Positions 5,896 through 42,780 of a stretch of 64,000 nt of DNA are shown piece after piece (the stretch's first letter is position 1; every line of letters begins with the position of its first letter). Both the position numbers and the translations under genes were made by a program. Origin of the DNA: a virus; IMG/VR virus record IMGVR_UViG_3300042691_035814, positions 1 through 64,000 of that record; one strand, 5' to 3'. The notes beneath the pieces were generated by a model. The model was not told the DNA's origin and ran no database searches. It saw only the letters and a list, made by a program, of their open reading frames with translations.

Positions 5896-6348
5896 ATGGC
5901 GGTAACATACGGTATAGATTATCCATTTAGAGACAGTTTAAAAGGTGATTTTTTAAAATTAACTGAATCACCTGAAAGAGAAGTTAGAGCTAACTTATTA
6001 CATCTTATTCTGACAAGAAAAGGTACCAGATATTATTTACCTGATTTTGGTACAAGAATATATGAATATATTTTTGAACAAAACGATTTCATATCACACG
6101 CACAAATAGAAGAAGAAATAAGAGAAGCGGTTAGAAAGTATATACCAAATTTGGACATTAATTCAATCGAAGTATTATCAGCGGAAAATGATGAAGATTT
6201 AGATTATGGAGCAATGGAAGATGAGGACACAAGATTATTTAGAGCCTCGTCATCATCTGCTAAACCGTATACCGCTAGAGTTAAAATCGATTATACGGTA
6301 AATAACGGTGCATTTGCGTCATCCGATTTTATAATTATAAACATATAA
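5896..6348 (+). CDS. baseplate wedge protein, gp25/gpW-like
   Basis: A 150-residue protein of the T4 gp25 / P2 gpW lysozyme-like baseplate family. The pattern of this fold is visible: a short N-terminal FRD-x-LKGDF segment, RANLLHLILTRKGTRYYLPDFGTRI in the centre (about 33-57) with the family's E/L-x6-T-x-x-G-x-R-x-x-x-P-x-F-G signature, and a following IEEEIREAVRKYIP helix. It is the inner sheath-initiator/wedge component of contractile tails. It is followed at once by the gp6-like gene, the same order as W-J in P2, which supports the call. An acidic insertion around 97-115 is unusual. The enzymatic lysozyme activity is lost across the family. Confidence 0.88.
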   Translation: MAVTYGIDYPFRDSLKGDFLKLTESPEREVRANLLHLILTRKGTRYYLPDFGTRIYEYIFEQNDFISHAQIEEEIREAVRKYIPNLDINSIEVLSAENDEDLDYGAMEDEDTRLFRASSSSAKPYTARVKIDYTVNNGAFASSDFIIINI

Positions 6349-6349
6349 T

Positions 6350-8182
6350 ATGGCAAAAAAGATATCATACGCTATTAGAGATTTTGCGGGTTTAAGACAA
6401 GAGTTGGTTAATATGTCGAAAGAATATTATCCTGACTTAGTTAAAAATACTAATGACGCATCAATATATTCAGTTCTTTTAGATATAAATGCTGCGGTTG
6501 CGGATAATTTACACTTTCATATAGACAGAGTTTGGCAAGAAACAATGTTGGATTTTGCTCAACAGAGACAATCACTATTTCATATTGCAAAAACATATGG
6601 AATGAGATTACCGGGTAACAGACCTTCAGTGGCGTTGTGTGATTTTTCTGTAAATGTTCCGGTTAGAGGAGATAAGGAAGATGAAAGATATCTTGGTGTG
6701 TTAAAAAGTGGTGCTCAAGTTTCAGGAGGAGGTCAAATATTTGAAACAATTGAAGATATTGATTTCTCAAAACCATTTAATAGTAGGGGTGAACCTAATA
6801 GATTAAAAATACCAAATTTTGATGGTAATAATAAATTAATTTCATATACAATCGTAAAAAGAGAACCTGTGGTAAACGGGGTATCAAGAATATACAGAAG
6901 AGTAATTACAGAATTAGACCAAAAACCTTTCTTGAAATTGTATTTACCAGAACAAAATGTTTTAGGTGTCACTTCGGTTATTCATAAAGAAGGGACATCA
7001 TTCGGGGGTAATCCAACATCAAACGAATTTACTTCACAAACAAATAGGTGGTATGAAGTTAAATCTTTAGTTCAAGATAAAGTTTTTGTACCAAATCCAA
7101 CTCAAGCGTCAGATACATCTAATTTTATTGCGGGTGATTACATAAAAGTAGAAAATAAGTTTATCACAGAATATACTCCCGAAAATTACTTTTCATTGAC
7201 ATTTGGTTCAGGTGCGGTTGACCCTATGGAAAATTTAGATAGTTTTATTGAAGGTAATATGAAAGTTAATTTAGGTACCTATCTCAATAATTTATCATTG
7301 GGTAGAACACCTAAAGCAAATACAACTGTTTTCGTAAAATATAGAGTTGGTGGTGGTAAGGATAGTAATTTAGGTGTTAGTGTAATAACTAGTGTAGATA
7401 ACGTTGAATTTAATGTTCAAGGACCTAATTCAAACACAAATACTCAGGTTATTCAATCTTTAACGGTTACAAACGTAACACCAGCAATTGGGGGTGCGGA
7501 TCAACCGACAATTGAAGAAATGAGAAACATGATTGCATATAATTTTGCTGCTCAGAACAGAGCGGTAACATTAAATGATTACAAATCTTTAATTGAAAAT
7601 ATGCCATCAACTTACGGAGCGCCTGCTAAAGTAAATGTTATGGAAGAGGACAATAAAGTTAGAATTAAATTATTGTCATATGACCAAGATGGTAATCTTA
7701 CTGATATAGTTTCAGATACACTTAAAAATAACATTTCAAATTACTTAACAGAGTATAGAATGTTAAACGATTATATCGATATCGTGACAGGTGAGGTTAT
7801 TGATTTAGCTTTAGAAATTGATTTAGTTTTAGATAAAAATGAAAGTCAAACGGATATACTTAAATCTGTAATTCAAGAAATTACTACATATTTCTCCATA
7901 GATAAAAGAAAAATGGGTGACCCTTTACTTGTTGGTGATTTGAATAAAATGATAGGAAATGTTGGCGGAGTTGCTAACGTCATCGACACAAGGGTTTTTA
8001 ATAATATAGGAGGAGAATACTCAACCGCTGAAGTGTCTCAATCATATAAAGACAGTATTACTAAAGAAATTCAACAATCAGATTCAACTATATTTATGAA
8101 ATCTAATCAAATTTATCAAATTAGATTCCCTAATAAAGATATAAGAATTAGAGTTAAAACTTTAGCTACGACTACATTTTAA
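6350..8182 (+). CDS. baseplate wedge protein, gp6/gpJ-like
   Basis: A 610-residue homologue of T4 gp6 / P2 gpJ, the wedge protein that forms the inner baseplate ring. The N-terminus describes a helical region rich in Asp/His (VADNLHFHIDRVWQE, about 50-64), and the C-terminal half has the conserved TIEEMR-x5-Y-x-F-AAQNRAVTLNDYK segment near 385-410 typical of gpJ-like proteins. It starts one base after the gp25-like stop. T4 gp6 is 660 residues, so length fits. Together with gp25 it identifies a contractile tail. Confidence 0.88.
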   Translation: MAKKISYAIRDFAGLRQELVNMSKEYYPDLVKNTNDASIYSVLLDINAAVADNLHFHIDRVWQETMLDFAQQRQSLFHIAKTYGMRLPGNRPSVALCDFSVNVPVRGDKEDERYLGVLKSGAQVSGGGQIFETIEDIDFSKPFNSRGEPNRLKIPNFDGNNKLISYTIVKREPVVNGVSRIYRRVITELDQKPFLKLYLPEQNVLGVTSVIHKEGTSFGGNPTSNEFTSQTNRWYEVKSLVQDKVFVPNPTQASDTSNFIAGDYIKVENKFITEYTPENYFSLTFGSGAVDPMENLDSFIEGNMKVNLGTYLNNLSLGRTPKANTTVFVKYRVGGGKDSNLGVSVITSVDNVEFNVQGPNSNTNTQVIQSLTVTNVTPAIGGADQPTIEEMRNMIAYNFAAQNRAVTLNDYKSLIENMPSTYGAPAKVNVMEEDNKVRIKLLSYDQDGNLTDIVSDTLKNNISNYLTEYRMLNDYIDIVTGEVIDLALEIDLVLDKNESQTDILKSVIQEITTYFSIDKRKMGDPLLVGDLNKMIGNVGGVANVIDTRVFNNIGGEYSTAEVSQSYKDSITKEIQQSDSTIFMKSNQIYQIRFPNKDIRIRVKTLATTTF

Positions 8183-8236: not shown

Positions 8237-11200
8237 ATGATACAAAAGCACAGAATTTCGACAAATATTGGTAAGGACCAAAAAGTAACAGTTGAACTTA
8301 AACAGGATTACGATTTATTGGAAATTTTATCTTTAAAATTTTCACAAGTTGATGTTTATAGGTCATTATGTTCCGACTATGGCGTCGTTGTAGGTAGAAT
8401 TTCCGCAAATAATGGGTTTGGAATACCCAATGCAAGGGTTTCTATTTTTATTCCACTGGCTGACGAAGATGCCGATGACCCCGTTATTTCTGCTTTATAT
8501 CCATATACTGCAACTGATGATACAAACGATGGTGGTTATAAGTATAATTTATTACCATCAAGAAGACAACATGGTGGACATGAACCCACGGGTACTTTTC
8601 CTGACCAATTAGATATTTTAACTAGAGAAGAAGTACTTGAAGTTTACGAAAAATATTACAAGTACACAGTTAAAACAAATGAATCCGGAGATTTCATGAT
8701 ATGGGGTGTTCCGGTTGGACAACAGACATTACACGTTGATGTTGATTTATCTGACATTGGTTGTTTTTCATTAAGGCCTGATGATTTTATTGCTCAAGGT
8801 GCGGGCGTTGATCAATTTATGACGACGTATAAATTCAAATCATCACCAGACCTTGCGTCACTTCCTCAAATTATAACATTTGAACAAACAATAGAAGTTG
8901 TACCTTTTTGGGGTAACGTCGAATTATGTGAAATCGGTCTAACAAGAACAGATTTTGATTTAGCCGACCAAGGAATTACAATACAACCTAAAGCATATCT
9001 TATTGGAGGGACATTTTCTGATACGGGAAAAAATTCAGTTAATAAAAATTGCAGACCCAGAAAGAAAATGGGTCGAAAATGTATGATGACATCTGAAAAG
9101 GGTCAAATAGAAACAATTAGATTTACATCAAAAAAAGATTCGCAGAGTAGGCCAATATTAGAAGAAGTGGAGTTGGATGAAGATATTGATGAAAATGGTT
9201 CATTTATGATGTCCGTAGATATGAATATGGATTATCTCGTAACAAATGAATTTGGTGAAAATGAATATAGCAACGACCCAAATAAAGGTATACCAACGTC
9301 GGCTGTTCAAAGATTTAGATTTACAATTAAAAATGAGAGTTTAGGTAGGGTTAGGACAACCGGAAGTTATTTAGTCCCTAACATTAAAGAACATGTTAGT
9401 ACTTTTACATATCCTGACGAATCGACAAAATCATATGCGTGGTCTACAAATTACGATGATTATCCTTTTTATGGTCAGTCAGATATTTTAAATAATGTTG
9501 ATGGTTTTTGGTACCCACAAGATTATTTTTATAGATTTACCTACAATAAAGTCTACACAGTATCTTCTTTTCAAAATTCGTATGAAACTGACTACAATGT
9601 TAAAAAAGAACAATTTTTAGGTATTAAAGAAATTGTTCCTGCGGAAGAAGAAGATTGTGACTCTTCAGTTAATACTTTTCCTGTAAATTTTGCTGTTAAG
9701 AATTACACTTTTAGTTTATTAATTGCTGATATTTTATTATATATTGAATATTTTCTAAATATAGTAAAATTAGGTTTTTTTAATGCTGCTGTTAAATCAA
9801 TAATGGGACTCGCATGTTCTATCGATGAATCACCAACAAGAAAACTTTCACTTCTATTAAAAAATTGGGGATTAAATATACAAGAAAGGTCACAAAAAAC
9901 TTTACATTTAATATCGTATCCCGAATGTGATGAGTGTACTGATGAAAATGACGCAAATAATTTACCACCAATTTTAACCGGATCACCAGTGGCAAATCCG
10001 TGTTACGTTGGTACATTTTTAATAAATAATACAGGTAGAACACAAAATGGGACATTACCTATGAGTAATTTTATTTTTTCCGCATCTACTGAAGGTAATT
10101 GTGTAAATTGTTCGGACCCTAATTTAGATATTGTATTAGCATCACAAAATAACCAATACTATACTTCCGGGTACACATCTTTGGCACATTTTTATCAAAA
10201 CATAAATAATTATATTGCAATCACATATAATTCGAATGCTAGTATATTTAGTGGAAATAAGTTTTTCAATATCTTAAGTGATCGTGTACAAGCGTCACCT
10301 ATTTATTGGAAAAGTTACACATATAATTTCAGTGCGTATGGTGGAATATCAAATTTAAGTTTAGTTTATAATGGAGTGCCTTACAATATACCTTTTCCAA
10401 TTAGTGCAACAACTTTTTTTCAGAGTTTATCTGGAGGTACGTTTGGTCCATCTGGTGCAACATTAACAATTACTAATCCCAATCAATTCACCATTGCACC
10501 AAATTGTACAAAAATTTTTGGTAATCTTACTGTTGTACATACCGGAGGTACTTCACCAAATACGGTGTCACCGTCAATAACAACTAGTTCAATTATTATT
10601 GATTATGAAAATATTACATTTTATGATGAAGATAATGCCTTTATAGATTTAAATCCACCATATCCTGCAGTACCAACAGGAAGAACTGTTCCAATTATAT
10701 TAGCAAACTCTGGATGTACAGAAACTGACCTATCATTAGCGATTACCGCGGAAATTGAATCTGGTTGTAATTTGTACGATTCACCGTACAATGAAAATTT
10801 GATTAATTATTATATCACTTCTACCGGTAATTTAAGTACTGATATCGGTGGATTTGGTGATAGGTTTTCAGTTAGTGATGATGATGGTAGGTCATATGTT
10901 TTACCTGGTAGTTATACTCCGGGGACTCAAATATACGCCACAGTGGTTAGTGACATTTATAATCTTAATGTTTGTTATTCATCAAAAAAAGGTGGTCCTA
11001 ATTTTGTTTATTTTGATGACATGCTAGTACCTCTTCCAAGATTGTGGGATGGCTACCTTAGAGGTAAAATTACGAAATCAGGTGTATCTGAATTTAGTAA
11101 CGGTGTTTTTTATATTGTACCAGGGTCACAAACTTTTTGGAGATTAATTGATATACTTAGTGAATTTAGAAAAAGAAAAAGAGTCGCAAAATTATTTTGT

Positions 11201-12556
11201 GGGGGTATTGCCAATTATAGTTTTATAAATAATTGGTTATCTGGTTCTTTGTATTTCTTTGCATTTAAGGCGAAAAATAAGAGGAGAAATAACACAAAAT
11301 ATTGTACCGATGTTGTTAAATGGATTACAGACCAATCAAGATTTTATTATAGGTCATGTAGATATGAAGACGCAACAAATACATGGGGTTCCAATTGGTA
11401 TGGAGGAGAGAAAAAAATAAATAGACCAACAACATTTGTTGATTTGGGTCCTCGAGATGAGTTCATTAAAGAAATATGTACTGACCCAAGTGTAGACCCT
11501 AATTGTTCTGTGTCTAGACAAATTGGACCAACATCGTTTAAAAGTTTTGGTGAAATACAAGGACTTAATATAAATTACAGACTTGATGTCACAAATGCGT
11601 CATATAATATAAATGATTTTTTTGATAATACCGGATTTTCAGGATACAGAAGAGTAATGAACGGTGATGTTTTACAATTAATATCAATTAATAATGAAGT
11701 AGGTATTGAAGAATTTGATTTACAAAACCCTAAATACCTCGGTTATTCGTATCAATTATTAGACCCCGAATTTTATCCTGACGTATTTAGTACGGATGGT
11801 GACGGTACACCCGGAACATATATGAGTGGAGGTAAACCAAACGGACCATTACCAGTAACATTTGATTTTACTGAAGATGGTGAGAGAATACGTGCTTGTT
11901 TGAATGAACCTACACATATTGACTATAGTGGAAATCATGTACAAGGTAGATTAACTGAATCTTCGCAACCTGTTCCTTTTTATTTATGGGAAAAAAATGC
12001 CAGTGGATTTGGAGATAACACACTAAATCAACATTGGGATTTTACACAAATTCAAGTTCAACCTTTACAAGGAATGACTTACGCGTACAGTTTAACAGGT
12101 TCACCAAATGATTCTTCAGACCAATATTTGTTATTACCGATGACATATACGTTCCCTGGTGAAACATTTACAGGAAATACCGGTAATGCAACAAATGAAT
12201 TACCTTATGATGTTGTGGTGGTTTCTCCTGACCCTGATAATCATACCATATACGATAGTGAATATCCAGGATTCACTTATTTATATGTGACTAGTGGTTC
12301 TACCTCAGGCACAGAAATAACTGCATATTTGGGTACACTTTATACAAGATACGGTACTGCAGGACAATGGCATTCAATTGCGTGGGATTATACTAACGAT
12401 TTCTTAATTAGAAGAACTGAGAATTATTATAGTGGTAGTAAACAAATTTTATCAACCCCATTCTTATTTTATTTTGGTTTAAGACCGGGCAATACTGGCT
12501 TGGATAAATTTATTGAAAGGTTTGGACCCACCGGAGTGTTCCCTACACAAGAATAA
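8237..12556 (+). CDS. giant baseplate/tail structural protein with regulatory-like beta domain
   Basis: A 1439-residue virion protein in the position where T4 carries gp7. The first 175 residues contain a carboxypeptidase-regulatory-like / Ig-like beta module: GRISANNGFGIPNARVSIFIPL (about 54-75) and a later ESGDFMIWGVPVGQQTLHVDVD (about 150-172), split by an inserted Tyr-rich loop. The middle and C-terminal parts are Thr/Ser/Gly/Asn-rich beta-type sequence with many cysteines. Residues 489-528 form a long hydrophobic helical stretch, odd in a soluble structural protein. A basic region (FRKRKRVAKLF then KAKNKRRNN) sits near 975-1025. It overlaps the next gene by one base (TAATG). Wedge role is inferred from context; sequence identity to gp7 is not claimed. 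Confidence 0.75.
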   Translation: MIQKHRISTNIGKDQKVTVELKQDYDLLEILSLKFSQVDVYRSLCSDYGVVVGRISANNGFGIPNARVSIFIPLADEDADDPVISALYPYTATDDTNDGGYKYNLLPSRRQHGGHEPTGTFPDQLDILTREEVLEVYEKYYKYTVKTNESGDFMIWGVPVGQQTLHVDVDLSDIGCFSLRPDDFIAQGAGVDQFMTTYKFKSSPDLASLPQIITFEQTIEVVPFWGNVELCEIGLTRTDFDLADQGITIQPKAYLIGGTFSDTGKNSVNKNCRPRKKMGRKCMMTSEKGQIETIRFTSKKDSQSRPILEEVELDEDIDENGSFMMSVDMNMDYLVTNEFGENEYSNDPNKGIPTSAVQRFRFTIKNESLGRVRTTGSYLVPNIKEHVSTFTYPDESTKSYAWSTNYDDYPFYGQSDILNNVDGFWYPQDYFYRFTYNKVYTVSSFQNSYETDYNVKKEQFLGIKEIVPAEEEDCDSSVNTFPVNFAVKNYTFSLLIADILLYIEYFLNIVKLGFFNAAVKSIMGLACSIDESPTRKLSLLLKNWGLNIQERSQKTLHLISYPECDECTDENDANNLPPILTGSPVANPCYVGTFLINNTGRTQNGTLPMSNFIFSASTEGNCVNCSDPNLDIVLASQNNQYYTSGYTSLAHFYQNINNYIAITYNSNASIFSGNKFFNILSDRVQASPIYWKSYTYNFSAYGGISNLSLVYNGVPYNIPFPISATTFFQSLSGGTFGPSGATLTITNPNQFTIAPNCTKIFGNLTVVHTGGTSPNTVSPSITTSSIIIDYENITFYDEDNAFIDLNPPYPAVPTGRTVPIILANSGCTETDLSLAITAEIESGCNLYDSPYNENLINYYITSTGNLSTDIGGFGDRFSVSDDDGRSYVLPGSYTPGTQIYATVVSDIYNLNVCYSSKKGGPNFVYFDDMLVPLPRLWDGYLRGKITKSGVSEFSNGVFYIVPGSQTFWRLIDILSEFRKRKRVAKLFCGGIANYSFINNWLSGSLYFFAFKAKNKRRNNTKYCTDVVKWITDQSRFYYRSCRYEDATNTWGSNWYGGEKKINRPTTFVDLGPRDEFIKEICTDPSVDPNCSVSRQIGPTSFKSFGEIQGLNINYRLDVTNASYNINDFFDNTGFSGYRRVMNGDVLQLISINNEVGIEEFDLQNPKYLGYSYQLLDPEFYPDVFSTDGDGTPGTYMSGGKPNGPLPVTFDFTEDGERIRACLNEPTHIDYSGNHVQGRLTESSQPVPFYLWEKNASGFGDNTLNQHWDFTQIQVQPLQGMTYAYSLTGSPNDSSDQYLLLPMTYTFPGETFTGNTGNATNELPYDVVVVSPDPDNHTIYDSEYPGFTYLYVTSGSTSGTEITAYLGTLYTRYGTAGQWHSIAWDYTNDFLIRRTENYYSGSKQILSTPFLFYFGLRPGNTGLDKFIERFGPTGVFPTQE

Positions 12557-15119: not shown

Positions 15120-16238
15120 ATGGAAAAAAATACGTATAAAATATTAATAAATCAAATACCAAAAGTTAAGCTACATTCATTAACAGGACAATATTGGTTT
15201 GATAGTTTTGGTAATTTATTTCCGTGGTCAGGAGGTACAAACTTATCACCTGAAACCGGTACAACATATTTTAATGTAAGTGGAGGTACAGTCACTAGTG
15301 GTTATTATAGATGGAATGGAACTACTTGGGTAACATATACTGGTAACACTGGTTATGATTATTATGTACCTATTTTTTTAGAAAGTAGTGTTGATGAAAT
15401 GGGTGTAATGGTTGGGTTTGATGGTAATATTACTCAAATGAATCAATTATGTAATTTTTCTTACACTCAAACAGGTTCAACTATACAAGTATATAATACC
15501 TCAGACCCTTTAGTTTTAAGAACATTAAAAGAACAAACATATACAATTAATTGGGGTGATGGAAGTGTATCCGGAATTACAATAACAGACGGAACACCAT
15601 CAGCGTCATTACCATCATTAACACATACATATTCAACATCGTCAGGATATACTATATCAATAACTTTAGATTCACCTTGGTCTAAACAGAAATTAAGTAA
15701 ATTAGTAACAATACCTAAAAATATTTCAGTTGCAAATCCTTTAGGTACTTTCAGTGGATTTACCATACCATTTACAATTAATACGGGACAAACAATTGAT
15801 TATTTAAATGATTATGATTATGTTCAAGGATATACTGGATATACCACAATATCGTTTGCTGCAATTGGTAAAAGTAGAATTTCTGAATTGAAATTATATG
15901 GGTCAAACACATATAGTGGAGTAACAACAGGTACGAATAATGGTATAGGATATAGTGCGTATACAATTGATGGTTTATATTATACCGATTATAGTGATGG
16001 GTATACTATGATAACCGGGTCAACATCAGGGTATACAAAAGAAGAAATATTCAATAATTTGATAACAAGAAATGAACATTTCCTTGGTTTTATAGATGAA
16101 CCAACAGTCTATTCTGACATTTTTATTGAAAGAGGTAAACAATCACCTTTGGAAAATAATTTAAGATTATGTGAAATTGATAATGTTGGAGAACTTGACT
16201 TGTATGGAAATGGATTTTTTAATGTAAAAAAACAATAA
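15120..16238 (+). CDS. tail structural protein with PKD-like domain
   Basis: A 372-residue protein. A PKD-like Ig fold is visible around 140-190: TINWGDGSVSG, then SLTHTYSTSSGYTISI, the usual WGDG...HTY signature of PKD domains, which in surface proteins mediate protein or glycan contact. The N-terminal 100 residues include a Gly/Thr/Tyr-rich region (YRWNGTTWVTYTGNTG) of the kind seen in phage fibre adaptors. It starts 2 bases after the preceding gene. Likely a baseplate-peripheral or fibre-attachment protein; exact location in the virion is inference. Confidence 0.78.
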   Translation: MEKNTYKILINQIPKVKLHSLTGQYWFDSFGNLFPWSGGTNLSPETGTTYFNVSGGTVTSGYYRWNGTTWVTYTGNTGYDYYVPIFLESSVDEMGVMVGFDGNITQMNQLCNFSYTQTGSTIQVYNTSDPLVLRTLKEQTYTINWGDGSVSGITITDGTPSASLPSLTHTYSTSSGYTISITLDSPWSKQKLSKLVTIPKNISVANPLGTFSGFTIPFTINTGQTIDYLNDYDYVQGYTGYTTISFAAIGKSRISELKLYGSNTYSGVTTGTNNGIGYSAYTIDGLYYTDYSDGYTMITGSTSGYTKEEIFNNLITRNEHFLGFIDEPTVYSDIFIERGKQSPLENNLRLCEIDNVGELDLYGNGFFNVKKQ

Positions 16239-16263: not shown

Positions 16264-17184
16264 ATGGCAGTAGGATCATATGGTATAGTAAGACCTTCAG
16301 ATGTTTCACCAGCGGATGTTGAAATAATATTTCATTATGTTTCTGAAAGGACATCTACTTCACCGGTAACAATGAAAAAATTAAATTCAGAGGATATATT
16401 GACCCCTGTTTTTCATAATGCAAATACAACAAATGACACAAATGCACCTAATGTTGAAATTTTGGGTGGTTTATATAATTTAAAATTAAGTGCAGATGAC
16501 TTTTCAGATTTAGGTATATATACACTACATATTAGACCAAAACAAATCAGAACTACGATTTCTGATTGCGGTATTTTGGCGTCATTACCATCGGTAAGAG
16601 GACTAATTATTGACTTAAGTAACATACCATCTGAAGATAGGAATAAATTTACACCTCAAGGATTAGTTGGATATAGAGTTGAATATATAAACACGGTAGA
16701 TAATAAGAAAATACCTAACTTTTATAGAATAGTTACATCATCTTTTTATTGTACACCTATTGTATCAAATCTAACAAGTACGACACAAAAATCTATAAGG
16801 TATCAATATACCGAACAAGCGACAAATTTGATGTTTTTAACTGTAACACCATCATCCGCTCCGTCAAATAAACCTAATACAGTACCATTTATTGGTTCAC
16901 CATCACAAAAAATTATACTTACAAATACTTTTGTGAACCCAACAACTATTGAGATAGAAATGGTTGAACATGATGCGTCTACATTGGCGAATGCGTTGTA
17001 TGGTAATCAAACTAAGGCGGTATCTTCCGGTATTTATACGATTTATGATAATAACAACAATATCTATAAGCAATACAACCTATATGAAGTTAAGGATGAA
17101 TTTAACGAAACGTTGTACGAAGTTCGTGAACAGAGAACAGATATTGACGAAACACTAAACTTTGACACTATTACAACAATATAA
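16264..17184 (+). CDS. baseplate structural protein, unknown
   Basis: A 306-residue protein of about the size of T4 gp8, though I see no sequence-level match to it. The N-terminus ([20 protein letters not shown]) and an alternating beta-type pattern throughout are typical of phage wedge proteins. It ends at TAATG, so its stop overlaps the start of the 1585-residue gene by one base, indicating coupled synthesis. Function inferred only from neighbours. Confidence 0.75.
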
Positions 17185-20100
17185 TGGCCAAATATATAGT
17201 ACCAAGTAAAGCCGCAAGTGGGGCACAAACATTCAGTGATAGTTTAGTTGGTAATCAAATTACCGATGGTACTAGTCAATTAACTAATACTAATTTTATT
17301 TTAGATAAAGTTATCCCTGAAAAAGACAGTAAAAAATTTAGAACAGGTACATTCTCAGATTTTTTAACTCTTGATGATTTAAAGGAGGAAACCAAATCAG
17401 TAACAACTCAGTCTAAAAAACAAAAAGAAGAAGAAGTAAAATTTAAAGGTAGTAAGAATGATGCGGGTAAATCTTTATTTGGTTCCTTAAAAGAAAGATT
17501 ATTAGTTTCATTATCAAGAATAATAAAAAAATATCCGGCAGCGGTTTTAGTTGATAAAAATAAACCATCTAGTGCGAGTCCTTATAGTGCGGAAAATATT
17601 GTTTATGACAATAATTTAAAAACCACTGAATTCTTTATACAAACATCGTTGTTTTTTAATCCAATTGATGTTGTTTTTTCTACACCAAAAAGTAACATTA
17701 TACCAGACTCAGATAATGAAATAAGAAATTTTTATTCTTCATATAAAAATTATGTGATTGATATAAATGGTGTAACATATGGTATTATAAATTACGTAGA
17801 ACCAAATGCGGTAAATAAAATAAAAATCAAGGTAAATGGTCAACCTTTCCCTAATCTTACAGCATATACGGGAAATTATTTGATTAGACCAACTGATTCA
17901 ATAACGGAAGAATTTTTTAATGGTTTAGATGATTTAGAAGAAATATTATTAAATAGAGAAACCACACCAAAATATAACGCTCCGTTTTTAATACCTAAAG
18001 ACAATTCCGATAATTCAAAAACCATTTTAGCAACAGTAGAATATAATTGGCCAATATCGAGAGATGGATGGAATATTGAAATACTTGGTGTTAATTATGA
18101 AAAATATGTCACAGATTTAATTGATGTTGCAGACCAAATAGACGATTATAAATCTAACTTATTTGTTAGATTTATGTCATCACCTCAACTTTATGAGTTT
18201 GATACAGAAGAAAAGAAGGCGGAATCTGTTTTTCAGTTGTATGGACAAAGTTTTGATACAGTAAAAAAATATATTGACAATATCGCGTACATGCGTAATG
18301 TGTCTTATGATGGTATTAATAATTTACCAGACGTACTTTTAAAAAATTTAGCAAATACGTTAGGTCTATCAACAATTAAATTATTTGATGAACAAAGCTT
18401 AGACCAAATTTTATATACAAGAATTGATTCACAGTACACCGGAGTTAATTTAGGGTATAATCAAATTGAAGCAGAATATGAATTTTACAGAAGAATACTC
18501 ATTAATCTTGCTTACTTATATAAATCAAAAGGAACAAGATCATGTATTGAATTTTTCTTAAAATTTATCGGTGCACCTGAACCAATGATTCAATTTGATG
18601 AATATGTTTATAATGTAACATCATTTCCAAAATCGTTTGATATTGACCAAGACATTTATGATGTAACATTAGGTGTCAAAAATTTAACGACTGCAACATT
18701 TATTCCAAGTGCGTACACATATACTAATACAGTAATTACTTCTTCAACAACATATACTAGAGATGAGTATCCTGTTGAAGAAGGTACAGGTTATCCAAGA
18801 AAAGCGTTTAGTGAAGCAAACGACATCTTTTTTGAAAAAGGTGCAGGTTGGTATGATATAACAATTGACCATAGATCGAGAGATATACTTGATGTTGATA
18901 ATTCAATTACAACTGGTAGAACAAAAACATTAAAGACAAAAATGAAACCATATACATATGGTGAAGAATACTTTGATGTTTTTAGAACATTACCTGGATT
19001 AGATACTGGTTATGAATTAGAAGCGGATATAGATAATAGAAAGAGTGAAATTTTTGGTGAAAGTTCATATTTTGTTTTAAATAGAAAAAACATACAACTG
19101 TATCTTTCAGCATCAAGAACTGTTGATTATGACATCTATAGAAAATCTAGAAACTTAGAATTAACATTCGGTACCACAACATTATATCCACAAACAGGAG
19201 TAACTTTTGCTGAGTATCTAAATGAAGTTTTAAGTAGACTTATAAAGAACTCACATAAAATAAGATATAAAAAGAATTATATAATATTGGAAGATGTCTT
19301 TAGAGATTATCTTTCAAGAACAACATATACCCCATTTAATTTTATTGACGTAGAAGAATATATAAATCGAATGAGTCCATACTGGACACAAATGATTGAC
19401 CAGTTTATTCCTGCTACAACACAATGGTTAGGTGGAAATGTGATTGATAATGGTGTATTAGGTAGACCAAAATATCCATATAGATTTGGTTGTCAACCTA
19501 AAAAGTTTATTGAAGAATTATTTCCTGATTTTGAAACAGCGATTGAAGAAGATTTAGAAACATTATTAGGTTCAGAAGAAAATTTTAGAGGTTTAATTAA
19601 GTTGACCGGAGTAACTTATTATCCTGTAATCATTATTGATGATGTTGTTTATTCAGGAACAAATTATTCTGTTATAATAAGTGGGACATCAAACACAACA
19701 AATAGTGCTCAATTATTTGACCCATTCCCTATGACAGGATGTACCAGTTTAACAAATAATGATCCAGTAAATTTGGCGTTAATTTGTGATTACAAACAAT
19801 ATATTAATCCTGACGTAACGAAAATCAAACAATTATGGATAACCGCATTATCAAATTTAATTGATGATTATATCAATACTTCAGAAACTATGGATGAACC
19901 CGGTTGTATTGATAGTTATGCTCCATATACCGCAGAAACGGGAAATAGTTCATGTCCACAAGTACCTAAACCACTTTTAACTTATAATATTTTTGTAGAT
20001 ACAGACGGTATTGATAAAATAGAAATAACATCTATAAAATATGGTACAAATGATTGTTCAGTAAACGATTATTTAGACTATATGTTTAATGCGGAATATT

Positions 20101-21941
20101 TGACTACACCATCAACTTGTGGGTTAAACGTAAATTTAATAAGTGGTTGTGATGTTTATGAAGGAGGCACTGAAGATTGTTTATTAACCGGTAATTTAGT
20201 AATTGAATTAGAAAATGCGGTTGGATTACAAAATAGTCAAGATGGTTGGCCGGTACATATATACACAGATTGTTTAACCGGAACTAACTTAAACATAAAT
20301 TTTGTTTCGGGATATAGTTTACAATACATAAGTGGATGTACTTTTCAAATAACAGGCGTTACAGAAAATGACGATTTTACCATTAGTGTTTTAGACGGAG
20401 CGAATTGTGAATCTAGAGTTCGTTTTAAAGGTTGGCAATTAAAGGCGGAACACGACCCATATGTTCCGGCTAGAAGCCATTATCAAGAATTTTATATTTC
20501 TTCTTATGATAACAATGAAGGATATGATATTGATTTACAGACTGGCGTGACATGGTGTGACGATTATACTGGATATACATTAGTATCAAATACTGAAATA
20601 TTAAGTTCGTACAATTACGGACTTAAAAACGATTCTAAAATAATAAGAATTGAACAAAGTAATATTGCTAATGTCTTATTGGAATTTGCTAATGGAACTT
20701 TCACTAATCAAACTTTAGAAGATTTTTTAATATCTGGTGAATTAGAAATTGTTAACGTACAAGATATTAATATTACTAATTGGTTAATAATGGCGGAATA
20801 TAAACCGTGTACAAGTTTATCTAATCATTCATTTGTTGTTGCACCTGAAAGTGGATATTCATTTAGTTACGATTATTCAGTTGGTTATGTGAATCACATC
20901 GATTGTTTAAGTTCAATTAAAAAATCATTAATTACCGGTTTAACTGTAAACAACACATATACAGTGTTTGAAGTTTTACCAACTAGTAAATTTAGAGTTT
21001 ATACAAATAAAATTATTAGCAATGGTAGTGTAATTAATACAAACTATTTCTTTGATGAAAGATTTCCTGAAGATTTACAAGTTAGACAAGACGAACCAAT
21101 TGAACCTTGTTGTGATTATCCTGAGGATTATTACAAATATTACAGAGGCGATTTCTTAATTGATAGAAATGGTTACCCAATAGAAGTTATTGCGGTTGAT
21201 TTAAATTATTGTGACTTTAGTTTTTATTATAATTTTAATGTGACAGGACAGTCAATCGGTGATTTAGTTGTGTTTAATGGTAATGATGACCACCAACCAA
21301 TTGTACAACATAATTATCAATTACATAACACATCGTTGTCATTCAGTGCTGAACAATTCTATACTGACAGTGAAAATTGTTCAACAGTTCCTGCAGTTGG
21401 TTCGTTGGCAAGACCTATTTATACCGGTACTTGTACAGGAACACCTGTTGTTACATGTGTTGTTCCAACACCAACTCCAACCCCAACACCAACTCCGACT
21501 CCAACTGCAACACCAACACCAACTAATACACCGACTAGTACACCTACACCAACACCAACAAATACACCAACACCAACACCGACACCAACTATAACACCAA
21601 CACCAACAATACCACCTAAAGCAACAACAACACCGACGCCAACACCTACACCTACTGCGACGCCAACGCCAACACCAACAGCGACTTCTATTTCACCAAC
21701 ATATATTTATTTGGCAGAAATGAGGTCTTGTGATGATTGTGGAAGTAATGTGGGTCAAATAGTTGTTGGTTCGTATACAACACTAACAATAAACAGTTAT
21801 GCGATTCAAATCGGTAGTCCCGCACCACAAACCACAGTATATAAAATTTTAGCTGGTAGTAGTGGTTTTGCTGCTATAACTGTTGTACCAACAGGTTCAA
21901 ATAATTGTACAGTTGCTTGTAACTATGAAGTAATAACTTAA
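17184..21941 (+). CDS. very large tail protein: gpI-like helical part, beta modules, Pro-Thr linker
   Basis: A 1585-residue virion protein. Residues about 340-480 are helical with the motif [20 protein letters not shown] near 450-469, similar to P2 gpI-type tail proteins, and P2 places gpI right after gpJ, so a baseplate role fits. The central part is beta-type and Cys-rich. Residues about 1428-1502 are an uninterrupted Pro-Thr linker (21465-21690), followed by a compact C-terminal domain of about 80 residues with paired cysteines (SCDDCG, NNCTVAC). The layout suggests a baseplate-anchored protein that displays a terminal domain on a flexible stalk. gpI similarity is tentative. Confidence 0.78.
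21465..21690 (+). repeat. Pro-Thr codon repeat (CCAACA/ACACCA array) in a tail protein
   Basis: About 225 bases of imperfect six-base repeats (CCAACA, CCAACT, CCGACT) encoding PTPTPT with occasional TNT, TST, TAT and ITP variants. It resembles the array at 28636-28820 closely, with shared blocks of 15-20 bases, and more loosely the one at 42390-42590. Synonymous codon variation is present throughout, suggesting age or selection against slippage. Confidence 0.85.
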
Positions 21942-24292: not shown

Positions 24293-26200
24293 ATGTCAAA
24301 TTTAGTATCAATACAGTTTCAACCAACAATATATCCACACAATGTGTATACTGGAAGTACATCAGGTTCAACAAGTGGAATTATTTGTAGCGCACAAACA
24401 ACTTCTTGTTCATTTACTGTAGATGATACGTATAAAGCATCGTACAATACTATTTGGTTAAGAATTGTATCTGATGAAGGATGTAAAGAACAATTATATC
24501 AAGTTTTAGTAAATGAACCTGATTGTGGCGGTGAATATTGTGAATTCTCGGCAACGACTGTTTATAATGGACTTATAAATGATTGTGATTTAGAAATTAG
24601 TGTCTCGTCAACAGAAATTTTAACATCTGGTGGAACCGCAAGTGCAACTGTAACATATACAAAAAATCATGGTCCTGTTTCTATCTTGTGGAATAATGGT
24701 CAAACAGGTCAGACTATTACGGGATTATCTGGTGGAACATACACTGTTAGTGTTACTGATACTTCAGTATCTGGTTGTACCGTAACTGGTTCAACAACAG
24801 TTTATGAAACAATGGTGTTCTCTGCAACATCGATAACATCATTTAATCAAATTAATTTAGAGTCATATACGAATCGTTTGGCGATAAATTGGGGTGATGG
24901 TGATGAGAATATATATACCACAACTGGCGGTTCTACAACTGTATCTCACACGTATTCAAGTCCATATACTGGTTTAGTGAAATTAAAATCTATTGATTTA
25001 AGTGACGTAGAAAGATTCGATATATCCGCCGCCACCCCAACAACAAATGCATACACGGTAGATACATCCGAAGCGAGAAAATTAGAAAGGGCTAGATTAT
25101 ATATAACTAGAACTCATGGTAAAACAACAGGACTTGTATCTCAATTACCGGGAAGGTTATCCCCAACCACATTAACATTAACAATTAATAACGCGTATAT
25201 TAGTGGTGGCACCGCTGATTTACCAAGAAATCTAACGGATGGTAGATTTTATACCGGAGTATATATAACAGGTAACACAAATCAATTCCCTACCGGAGTA
25301 ACAGTACTTGATATTTGGGGTGTTAATACAGTAACGGGTCTAATTTCGGATTACCCAAGATCACTTCAAATTAGTAGAATATATGGTTTTAATACTATTT
25401 CAGGATCTACGAGCCACATACCAACAGGAATGACAAATTTTGGTATACAAGGTTCTGCATATATGTTTGGTGATATTGCAAATGTACCGACAGGAATAAC
25501 AAGTCTTAATATATATGGACAAAGTATTGTTAGTGGAAATACAAGTAGTCTTAGCGGAAGACCATTGGTGGAACTTACAATTGATAATGAAGAAGGTTAC
25601 GAAACATCGGGCCACACTATAACAGGTTTACTTTCTTCATTACCAAAAACACTTACCAGAATTCAAATCGGTGGTGCAAATACTATAAGTGGTAACACTA
25701 TTGACGTACCTACTGGAGTAACATACTTCAATTTGAAAGGTCAAAATAGGTTACAAGGTGATATAGATAATTTACCGAATAAATTAACAGATTTATTCTT
25801 AGGTGGGCAAAACACTGTTTCAGGTTTAACATCTAACATACCAACAGGAATCACTGTTTTTGAAATCGGTGGTTTAACTACTGTTACGGGTTCACTAAAT
25901 AATATACCAAATAATGTGTATTATTTTGTTCTAAAAGGTAATTCTAATCTAACAGGGTATACCGCAGGAAGAACCTGGGTTAATAATATGAATAGATTTA
26001 TTTATATACCAACTAACGCAGCAAATAAATTATCTGACGCTAATCTGGATTCTTTATTTATTGACTTTACAGGTTATACTTGGACAACAAGTTCTAGATT
26101 CGGTGTTGCTAAACTTGAGACACGTGGAAGTGGAACAACCGCGTCGGATTCGGCTAAAGCAATATTATCGGGATATGGTATAAACATAGTATTCTATTAA
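24293..26200 (+). CDS. tail adhesin with SprB repeat, PKD-like domain and 22-residue solenoid
   Basis: A 635-residue modular protein. Residues about 110-172 match the SprB repeat known from Flavobacterium gliding adhesins (VSILWNNGQTGQTITGLSGG, then TYTVSVTDT and GCTVTGS). Residues about 196-230 are PKD-like (INWGDGDE ... VSHTYSS). From about 300 to 560 there are around eleven 22-residue repeats with consensus T-x-F-x-I-x-G-x-N-T-V-S-G-x-T-S-x-I-P-T-G-I, resembling LRR/FNIP-type solenoids. A globular C-terminal cap follows. SprB repeats are a Bacteroidota signature, so the domain was probably acquired from a host. Expected at the fibre tip or side; role is inference. Confidence 0.8.
   Translation: MSNLVSIQFQPTIYPHNVYTGSTSGSTSGIICSAQTTSCSFTVDDTYKASYNTIWLRIVSDEGCKEQLYQVLVNEPDCGGEYCEFSATTVYNGLINDCDLEISVSSTEILTSGGTASATVTYTKNHGPVSILWNNGQTGQTITGLSGGTYTVSVTDTSVSGCTVTGSTTVYETMVFSATSITSFNQINLESYTNRLAINWGDGDENIYTTTGGSTTVSHTYSSPYTGLVKLKSIDLSDVERFDISAATPTTNAYTVDTSEARKLERARLYITRTHGKTTGLVSQLPGRLSPTTLTLTINNAYISGGTADLPRNLTDGRFYTGVYITGNTNQFPTGVTVLDIWGVNTVTGLISDYPRSLQISRIYGFNTISGSTSHIPTGMTNFGIQGSAYMFGDIANVPTGITSLNIYGQSIVSGNTSSLSGRPLVELTIDNEEGYETSGHTITGLLSSLPKTLTRIQIGGANTISGNTIDVPTGVTYFNLKGQNRLQGDIDNLPNKLTDLFLGGQNTVSGLTSNIPTGITVFEIGGLTTVTGSLNNIPNNVYYFVLKGNSNLTGYTAGRTWVNNMNRFIYIPTNAANKLSDANLDSLFIDFTGYTWTTSSRFGVAKLETRGSGTTASDSAKAILSGYGINIVFY
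25190..25975 (+). repeat. 66-base coding repeat (22-residue solenoid units)
   Basis: About eleven diverged tandem units of 66 bases inside the adhesin gene. Conserved positions are the IPTG/LP turn, an aromatic or Leu at unit position 3, Ile at 5, Gly at 7 and the NTVSG loop. One unit is longer (near residues 425-455). Diverged enough that recent slippage is unlikely. Confidence 0.75.
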
Positions 26201-26284: not shown

Positions 26285-29152
26285 ATGCCATTACCAACAG
26301 TATCTGCTAGTATAACTATTACAGTATCAGGACCAAATACCGGACCATTTGATTTATACTCAAATGTTGATGGATATACAACACCTTTTGAAAATAATGT
26401 ACCAAAATCGTTTTTAGCCACTGGTTATACGGTTACAACAATTCCTATGGGTACAACAACTATTGAAATACGTTCAGATAATTTTACATGTACTAATAGT
26501 GCGTATATAAGTGTGTCAGGAGCACCAAGTTGTTTTTGTGCAACTGTCACTATTATCAATGGTGATTTATTAGTTGCGACAGGTAACACGAATACATCTT
26601 TAAACGGGGTTTTATTTTTAGATGATGGATTAGGTGGGACAGATGGTGTTAAATGTAATGGTGACAGTCCAAACACACAATATACTGAAGATGGTATTGA
26701 TTATTTTTGTACAACATATTCTGGATTTCCGTTAATTAATTTATATTATTATCAAGATGATGTTGTTGTTTCAGGTGCGACAGTTTTAAGTGATGTTTTA
26801 AGTGGTGAAATATGTAACAGTGATGGTGATTGTAGATGTTGTGATTATGGATTTACAGAAGTTGGTGGAATTTGTACACTGACCGCGAGTACATTAAGTG
26901 GCGTTAGTGGAACGACATATATTTTTACTACAGGAGACACTAATTTGTCATATTTAAGAGATGGTACATATTTTTATGAAAATATAACAACAAAAACATT
27001 ACCATTAACTTTTGCTAATAATGCCAGTTTTATAACAAATGGAGTTTTATCAGGTTCTTCTTTACCTAATGGGCAATTTGGAGGATTAGTGGATGGTACT
27101 AATTACACAAACAGTCAAATATCAAATTTATATGGAACAAACGATTCAAATATTTCAGGAGCACCAATAACGGTTGTTACGAGCGCAACAACAGTACCAT
27201 GGAGAGAAACGGTATCTGCTTCACCTTGGAACGGTATAATGAATAATGCGGGAATAAAATTTGCCACAGGATTTAATCAATGGGTAGGATTTTATAAATG
27301 TTTGGATGTACCATCAACTCAAACGTATCATTTATTTCTTTCTGCAGATGATATGTTTGGTTTGAAATTAGATGGTGAATGGTTGGTAAAAAGATTAAAT
27401 AAAAATTCTGCAGCCTATCCCGCATTAACGGTTGGTAACGCAATAGGTGCTGATGGTTTATTTGACAAATCAGTTTCACCCGCTAGATTTTTACCTTTTC
27501 ATGTAGGTCATGTTTTACCTATAACATTAGACGCGGGTACACACATTTTTGAATTTTTCTTTTCGGATGCATTTAATTATGGTGGTACATGTTGTACAAA
27601 CGGTTGTTTTGAAATATATAGTGGTGTATCTGTAAATACATTAACAGGTGTAACTACATATAATGGGTTATCTGGATATACCGCGTTTTCAACAAGACAA
27701 ATAACAGGATTAACGCAAACAATACTTGGTAATTATGGTGATAATTATGGTATTTTTTGTGATGTTGATGGGACATTATTAAACATATGTGGTGGACTTG
27801 GCGCAGCTTATTGTTATTATGAAGAAGTTCCGGTTTGTGATGATTGTACTTCTTGTGATAACAAATATACATGGACACCAATAGGAGGTGGTTTATGTAC
27901 AGCAACAGATACCGTATCTGCAACACCACCCGTAACTCCATATACCGCATATACACGAACTAATTCGGTATATAGTTCATCTGGAACAATAATTTATGAT
28001 GATGATTGGGGGTTAAATGGTAGTGGTACAACAATAACAGCATTAACAACTGCTGACGTTTGGAAAAACACAACAACATCAAACGGACCATTAAATAGGA
28101 CTGCGGTATGGGCATATCCGGCAGCATTTGACCCAATTGATTATCCATTAGATGTTTGGTTAGGATTTAATAAATGTCTTGAAGGAATTGAGGCAGGAAC
28201 ATATTATATTGGAATTGCTGCAGATAATGAATTCAGGCTTGAACTTGATGGTAATGTTATATTAGACACATTTAACTATACAGGGATAACTGAACTAAAT
28301 AAGTTCATGAAATGGCACGTTTATCCAATAAATCTTCTTGCAGGTGACCATATTCTTGGTTTATATGGTTATAATTTTAGTATTACTGGAACACCAAACC
28401 CGGCAGGATTTGGTTGTGAAATTTATAATAACACGTTGTCAGAATTAACTGGTGCGACAACAACCGGAGATTTAAATATAATATTTACGTCAGCGTCTTT
28501 TAATGGTTCAATTATTCCTGTTATAAAAAATAATGATGGGACTTATTTATCATCAGGATACACATGTCCAAGTGGATATGAATATGCACCATGTGATGGT
28601 AATTGTTGGAAGATATTATATTGTGGTATTGCAATACCTACACCCACACCGACTCCAACACCAACACCGACTCCAACACCAACACCGACTAACACACCAA
28701 CTAGTACACCGACATCAACACCAACAAATACACCTACTAGTACACCAACACCAACAGCAACTAACACACCAACTCCGACCCCTACCTCAACACCAACGCC
28801 AACACCAACGAATACTCCATCAGGAGACTTTTATTTTTTACAGAATAATAGTGATGATGGTAGTATTGAAAATGTAAGGAATCTGATGGGACTATCTTTT
28901 GGTTTTATAACCGTACCTGTTGGTCCTGGACAAACTGAATCGGGAACATATGGCACAACTTATAATACTCCTTTGTATGTTGATGTCATAGCACCGTCTG
29001 GTGGAGGATCATTAAAATTATATAAAAATAACGTATTGGTTGATTGTATTCCAGTTTTAGCAACAGACGCATACCCACTTAATTTAGCACCATCTACCAC
29101 TTTTACAATTCCAAATACTTTAAAAATTGTTTTAAGTAATAGTGGATGTTAA
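26285..29152 (+). CDS. tail adhesin with duplicated PA14-like modules and Pro-Thr linker
   Basis: A 955-residue protein. Two related modules, about 300-450 and 590-720, share a Trp-x-GF-x-KCL lead ([22 protein letters not shown]), a LSADD/IAADNEF-x-L-x-LDG core and a later AG-x-H-x-F/L strand, the pattern of PA14-like carbohydrate-binding beta-barrels. Cys-rich segments separate them. Residues about 785-845 form a Pro-Thr linker (28636-28820), followed by a C-terminal domain of about 105 residues. Same stalk-and-tip plan as the 1585-residue protein. Glycan binding is inference from fold resemblance. Confidence 0.75.
28636..28820 (+). repeat. second Pro-Thr codon repeat
   Basis: About 185 bases of CCAACA/CCGACT/ACACCA-type repeats encoding PTPTPT with TNT and TST variants. 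It shares the order TNTPTSTPT-x-TPTNTPT with the array at 21465, which could support recombination between the two tail genes. Confidence 0.85.
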
Positions 29153-41559: not shown

Positions 41560-42780
41560 ATGAAAACTTGGTTACAGAAAAATTATAAAACATTAATAAT
41601 TGCTGCATTTTTAATACCAATCTTTACAGTTGCAATAGTATCTATTTCACACGTAACAAAATGGTATGGAATATCAAATCCGGTAACGTGGTCAATTTAT
41701 CTTTCAGTAGGTATTGAAATTGCTGCATTATCAACATTAGCCGCGTTATCTGCAAATATGGGAAAAAAAGTGTATTTCCCTTTTGCTATTGTAACCATAA
41801 TTCAATTTATTGGAAATATATTTTTTGCATATAGTTTTATCGACATCGAAAGTAAATCGTTTCAAGATTGGGTAGGTATGGTTTCACCTATTGTAGAATT
41901 TATGGGTGTTGATAATAATGATTTTGTTGGACACAAAAGATTTTTAGCATTATTTGCTGGAGGTATGTTACCAATTATTTCATTGTCTTTCCTTCATATG
42001 TTAGTTAAGTTTACTGAAGAGGAAAAGAAAAAACAACAAACCGTAGAACCAAATGTACAACCCGTAGTTGATATTGAAGAAATTAGTAAACAAGCAGGTA
42101 AAATTGAAGCAGAAAAAGAAAAACAAAAATATACACCTACTAACGAAGAGTTGAAAAAATTGGAAGAAGTTTTGATAAAACCATCTCAGGCACCAAAAAC
42201 CGCATCTGAAATGATGTTGACAAAAAATGAAGACATTATTAATTCAATACCACCGGATGATGAAGTTTCCGATTTGGATATTAAACCTGAGAATGAATCA
42301 GAAAAAGAAGTAATAGAGGACGAAGAAAAAAAAAACTTAATTCCTGAACCTACAGCAACACCTGTTTGGTTTAATAATCTTTTTAATCCTACTGAAACAC
42401 CCATATCAACACCTGAATTAACATCCACCCCCGTACCAACAGATACACCAACACCTACCCCCACACCAACGGATACTCCAACACCAGAACCTACCCATAC
42501 ACCCACACCTGAACCAACGGATACTCCAACACCAACCCCCACACCAGAACCTACCCATACTCCAACACCAATTCCAACTGATAGTGACGACCAAACTATG
42601 GAAGAAAAAAAAAACTTCGAAATATTATCAGAGGAACCAACAAAACTTTTGGATTCAATCCATTTAGTTGGAAATGACGTTAACAAACCAACAAATTCAC
42701 CAAAACCGATATTAATAAAAGGAAATAAAAAAACAGTTTTGAGAAATGTTGGTAATTCACAACGTAGACACGTTAGATAA
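41560..42780 (+). CDS. four-helix membrane protein with long Pro-Thr tail
   Basis: A 406-residue protein. The first 150 residues carry four likely membrane helices (about 11-31, 44-65, 71-93, 127-150). A charged helical stretch (152-210) and an acidic segment follow, then a Pro-Thr linker (about 265-345, with [12 protein letters not shown] units) and a basic C-terminus (ENKK, QRRHVR). Its linker mirrors those of the tail adhesins at 17184 and 26285, but here it is attached to a host-membrane-type domain. It precedes the amidase-fold gene, so a holin-like or envelope role is possible. No homology identified. Confidence 0.72.
42390..42590 (+). repeat. third Pro-Thr codon repeat
   Basis: About 200 bases of ACACCA/CCAACA/ACCCCC-type repeats encoding [14 protein letters not shown] and variants. 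More diverged from the two tail arrays than they are from each other, with Asp, Glu and His inserted. Confidence 0.8.

Follow-up and report, generated by a model that had tools for sequence, protein, structure and literature searches.

A tail-cassette gene and its neighbours

The window, a 64,000-nucleotide stretch of viral DNA, carries a gene for a product with one diverged SprB-type domain (predicted to be Ig-like) followed by a leucine-rich-type array, in a variable cassette after the baseplate genes (Table 1). The first-pass annotation had located an SprB repeat at positions 24620–24810, and these coordinates do correspond to residues 110–172 of the 635-residue frame. Bacterial contamination is ruled out as the source of the gene by the phage operon and by the identical sequence in several viral assemblies: a 100% identical product is found whole in two other viral records, and its first 558 residues in a third. 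No match to the gene was obtained by tblastn among named phages and plasmids, and the product, whole or as fragments, had no confident match in Pfam, NCBIfam or PHROGs. The proposal that it is a tail adhesin could be borne out as probable, the gene being placed after the gp25 and gp6 baseplate genes and within a syntenic cassette; the tail location is probable from gene position only.

Table 1. Coordinates and basis of the features discussed, in window positions.
Feature	Position	Strand	Basis or remark
T4-like baseplate wedge gp25	5896-6348	+	PHROG match, E 2e-18
T4-like baseplate wedge gp6	6350-8182	+	PHROG match, E 3e-25
Large protein after gp6, window copy without SprB	8237..12556	+	homologues bear SprB repeats in distal half
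Highly conserved lineage marker gene	16264..17184	+	at least 351 IMG/VR relatives
Conserved tail-cassette protein, N-terminal ~800 aa, synteny anchor	17184..21941	+	homologues upstream of SprB arrays
Neighbouring cassette protein, 770 aa	21961..24273	+	ORF; relatives in same cassette
Probable tail adhesin gene, 635 aa	24293..26200	+	ORF; 100% identical copies in other viral records
N-terminal domain, residues 1-71, possible attachment module	24293..24505	+	match to stand-alone ~110-aa protein
SprB-type repeat (predicted Ig-like), residues ~101-173	24593..24811	+	profile match, shuffles, tblastn, alignment, AF2 model
Confident core of SprB-type repeat, residues 116-167	24638-24793	+	profile match
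PKD-like segment, residues 196-237 (NWGDGDEN...VSHTY)	24878..25003	+	motif by eye only
22-residue leucine-rich/FNIP-like repeat array, residues 333-560	25289..25972	+	at least 9 units PTGITxLxIxGxNTVSGxxSNI
Neighbouring cassette protein, 955 aa	26285..29152	+	sub-threshold PA14 match, Pro/Thr linker

The N-terminal domain is 36% identical (E about 1e-5 to 2e-5) to a stand-alone protein of the same cassette in related phages. The PKD-like segment had no match in Pfam. The leucine-rich array does not reach the Pfam cut-off (LRR_4 E 0.016 and FNIP E 0.069 at best), its 22-residue units are regular, and none of the other phage loci examined has it. A whole-protein AlphaFold model, computed without an alignment, was too poor for use (pLDDT 42).

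The genes starting at 15120, 16264 and 17184 form a conserved block. Among the 80 nearest relatives of the 16264 gene, the stretch that follows 17184 varies greatly. The gene at 16264 has neither a Pfam nor a PHROG family despite its many viral relatives, which points to a phage lineage that is abundant yet poorly represented in such libraries. Long Pro/Thr (PTPTPT) linkers of the phrog_15511 type occur in three proteins of the window (21464-21680, 28632-28809 and within ORF 41560-42780); two of the three lie within the adhesin cassette, and these linkers, encoded by short tandem repeats, are likely to be variable in length. The PA14 match of the 955-residue neighbour (E 0.001) indicates a possible carbohydrate-binding domain. 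Further along the same contig, a sugar-nucleotide cassette (bases 66590-76883, L186:2590-12883) encodes a GDP-mannose dehydratase, a GDP-fucose-synthase-like epimerase, a family 11 glycosyltransferase and a DegT aminotransferase.

The SprB-type unit: sequence and predicted fold

Against a profile of 641 Bacteroidota repeat segments, residues 116–167 score 43.4 bits, a value already reduced by a HMMER bias correction of 15.9 bits and obtained in a partly circular test, the seed loci having been found with the window repeat as query. The next-best ORF of the window reaches 3.8 bits, and of the shuffles scored with the same profile (2,000 of the whole protein and 2,000 of the domain) the best reaches 9.8 bits. 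About 16% of the bacterial repeats score below the window copy. Independent evidence comes from Pfam, since 40 of 41 aligned relatives of the window repeat match the SprB family PF13573.

When residues 101–176 were compared by tblastn with one genome per species, at least 190 relatives were retrieved. The best 80 of these share 36-72% identity with the window repeat and all belong to Bacteroidota (Saprospiraceae, Chitinophagales, Flavobacteriales and others). A Shine-Dalgarno motif precedes only 1 of 38 gene starts, and scarcity of this motif is known for Bacteroidota. The nearest isolates by gp6 include Flavobacterium phage immuto (26% identity) and a Microcystis phage, the two matches being similarly weak. 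Together, the bacterial relatives, the Shine-Dalgarno count and the Flavobacterium phage match support the Bacteroidota host that had been suggested from the repeat, and such a host is likely.

The HMM search of the SprB family that the annotation had named as a check gives a divided answer, depending on the model used. PF13573 itself has no match in the window protein at E≤1 (whole protein) or E≤10 (fragment), and its single match in this gene, obtained in the longer record of this phage (141,857 bases), amounts to 15 bits against a cut-off of 28 bits; the 641-segment profile recognizes the repeat. The Pfam model ends near the conserved W and thus covers only the first half of the unit, where the window copy is degenerate: of the C.G..DG..GG..PYtYsW signature, the Cys, DG and GG are lost, which is why Pfam misses it. 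The second half (LWNNGQTGQTITGLSGGTYTVSVTD..GC) has been well preserved, with its W, G, GxY, VTD and C ladder, and eight of nine near-invariant SprB positions are retained overall (W33, T38, G48, Y50, V54, T55, D56 and C62). The repeat is thus one diverged SprB-type unit, SprB-like without being a Pfam member. The original assignment therefore stands as to similarity, which goes far beyond chance, and not as to formal family membership, with one diverged copy below the cut-off.

Modelling of residues 101–173 by AlphaFold2 with a 42-sequence alignment yielded a six-strand sandwich (pLDDT 78), so that an Ig-like fold is predicted for the domain. The top three Foldseek matches of this model are to fragments of the Aureispira surface adhesin GhpA (TM 0.65-0.67) and are weak at E ~0.03; many PKD and Ig domains come next, all matches having E>0.02. 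Searched against PDB sequences, the SprB profile picked up GhpA, RemZ and two phage proteins, the neck whiskers protein gp24 and the T5 decoration protein; a relationship between SprB repeats and the Ig-like domains of phages is thus suggested by fold and, weakly, by sequence. A PDB hit of WD-40 type (E 3e-6) was discounted as spurious, since it extends over just 26 residues of the G/T-rich stretch.

Such weak matches to phage Ig-like domains, the T5 decoration protein for instance, raise the question of whether the domain is a generic Ig-like beta domain whose SprB resemblance arose by convergence and composition. The Pfam score below the cut-off and the size of the bias correction also speak for this explanation. 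It has nevertheless to account for a corrected score well above that of any shuffle, for the retained near-invariant positions and for best relatives that are PF13573 repeats, all from Bacteroidota, and we regard it as unlikely.

SprB repeats elsewhere in the phage lineage

The window phage has one copy of the repeat and no tandem array. Among the 80 nearest relatives of the 16264 gene, SprB after 17184 is seen only in the window phage, although many of these loci end before that position; likewise, among 31 long records, only the window phage gives a PF13573 signal. A lone copy below the Pfam cut-off could be a functionless relic. More specifically, the unit might be the decaying remnant of a former array, now a mere linker between the N-terminal and leucine-rich parts. 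The degenerate first half, the single copy and the nearest relatives devoid of SprB, where covered, are in keeping with decay, whereas the well-conserved second half (W, GxY, VTD, C) argues for a fold that has been kept. This explanation appears to us about as doubtful as that of a generic Ig domain.

SprB arrays are found in more distant relatives within this myophage lineage. In 12 viral loci retrieved by SprB search alone, a homologue of the 17184 gene (E<1e-98) lies directly upstream of an SprB array, carried by a protein of 713-903 residues with 3-7 copies, and PF13573 matches above the cut-off were obtained in all 10 of the tested records of these loci. A second search, with a bacterial repeat as query, brought 61 viral contigs with SprB, several of which may represent one virus assembled repeatedly; 18 carry the 15120/16264/17184 block and 5 more carry part of the marker set. 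Around 70 viral contigs besides the window phage bear SprB repeats.

Three positions can be distinguished within the lineage. The first is at most 42 nt away from where the 17184 homologue ends. The second lies in the 8237 homologue, which is conserved over its first ~530 residues and carries the repeats in its distal half; 8237-12556 homologues with 2-4 distal repeats are present at loci L192, L206, L221, L233 and L246. In the third, the repeats are part of the 17184 homologue's own ORF: there are 13 copies in a 4683-residue ORF (L245:3-14051) and 6 copies in another (L217:2-3103). In addition, the 642-kb uncultured phage genome LR756502.1 shows, at 515575-517239, four places similar to the SprB-array protein of locus L087.

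Direct inheritance of the window copy from the arrays of these sister phages is unsupported: the repeats nearest to it by score come from bacteria, and no phage repeat ranks higher than 17th. With some 70 viral contigs and three positions in one myophage lineage, it looks as if phage and host draw on a common pool of surface-protein modules. SprB repeats on a phage contig could also act as a marker of the host phylum.

Proposed role and comparison with known systems

Taking these elements together, we think it quite probable that the product is a modular tail adhesin and the phage a myophage of Bacteroidota. In this adhesin the SprB-type domain would be an exchangeable Ig-like spacer or weak-adhesion module, and no gliding-specific action is needed. 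The N-terminus would provide attachment to the virion; a rigid Ig-like stalk, or a surface for weak glycan adhesion, would be formed by the SprB-type and PKD-like domains; and a leucine-rich-type solenoid at the tip would select the receptor. The SprB-type domain may have been captured from host surface proteins and swapped between tail genes.

It had also been suggested that the phage may mimic, block or bind the gliding-motility adhesin system, and this part of the annotation is unsupported. In studies of SprB, export and surface display were followed with its last 448 residues and not with the repeats, and SprF acts as the SprB carrier that anchors it to the cell surface (PMC12635249). SprB repeats are also present in a fucoidanase unrelated to gliding (PMC7698502) and in proteins whose genes lie close to those of polymorphic toxins (PMC7073777). 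Because the repeats extend to such proteins, and because export was followed with the C-terminal residues, the repeat marks Bacteroidota surface proteins and not gliding. No T9SS C-terminal sorting domain could be detected in the 635-residue product (no Por_Secre_tail or CHU_C match in Pfam).

Mimicry or binding of the gliding machinery, be it SprB, SprF or the moving track, with adsorption steered or blocked as a result, would fit the SprB type of the domain as well as observations in Flavobacteriia, where gliding proteins are important for adsorption of phages, with SprB and RemA as possible receptors (PMC13288928). Yet SprB export and display were followed with a construct of its C-terminal region, of which no counterpart was found here, SprB is anchored to the surface by SprF, non-gliding proteins bear the same repeats, and a lone diverged copy makes a poor mimic of a long array; this explanation looks very improbable. 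A related idea, that repeat-to-repeat or carrier contacts let the phage dock on, or ride, the moving surface adhesins of its host, would if true amount to molecular mimicry of the gliding system by a phage, but we give it scarcely any credence.

The modular tail adhesin that we favour can be set beside several known systems. With the PF13573 repeat of Flavobacterium johnsoniae SprB and of many T9SS-secreted proteins, it shares the same unit, by profile and alignment, and the same Bacteroidota sphere; it differs from these proteins by its single, half-degenerate copy below the cut-off, by the lack of a T9SS sorting domain and by being a phage gene product. The best structural neighbour of the modelled domain is GhpA (grappling hook protein A) of Aureispira (PDB 9flw, 9g8b and 9flu), which also matches the SprB profile but is a giant cellular adhesin of 5898 residues and not a viral protein. 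The phage Ig-like decoration proteins (T5 pb10, neck whiskers gp24 and Moo19) provide virion Ig-like domains with a weak SprB-profile match; these are located at the capsid or neck, whereas the window gene is baseplate-adjacent. Among cultured phages, Flavobacterium phage immuto (Immutovirus) has a related gp6 and a similar layout from baseplate to fibre and spike genes, but the gp6 identity is low and no SprB match was found in the 42-kb stretch examined.

A close parallel in organization is offered by the adhesins of crAss-like phages and Bacteroidota myophages, whose modular BACON/PKD Ig-like architecture has been shown experimentally (PMC13370021). There as here, Ig-like modules occur in varied combinations near structural genes and the predicted hosts are Bacteroidota; unlike the window gene, however, these adhesins combine BACON and PKD modules in gut phages, and SprB is unmentioned in the text of that paper. 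A literature search turned up no account of phage tail genes with SprB repeats. The finding is real and modest: a probable phage adhesin contains a divergent SprB-type domain, as part of a wider pattern of SprB modules among the tail genes of one myophage lineage. SprB-type repeats thereby join BACON, PKD and Big among the Ig-like modules of Bacteroidota phage adhesins.
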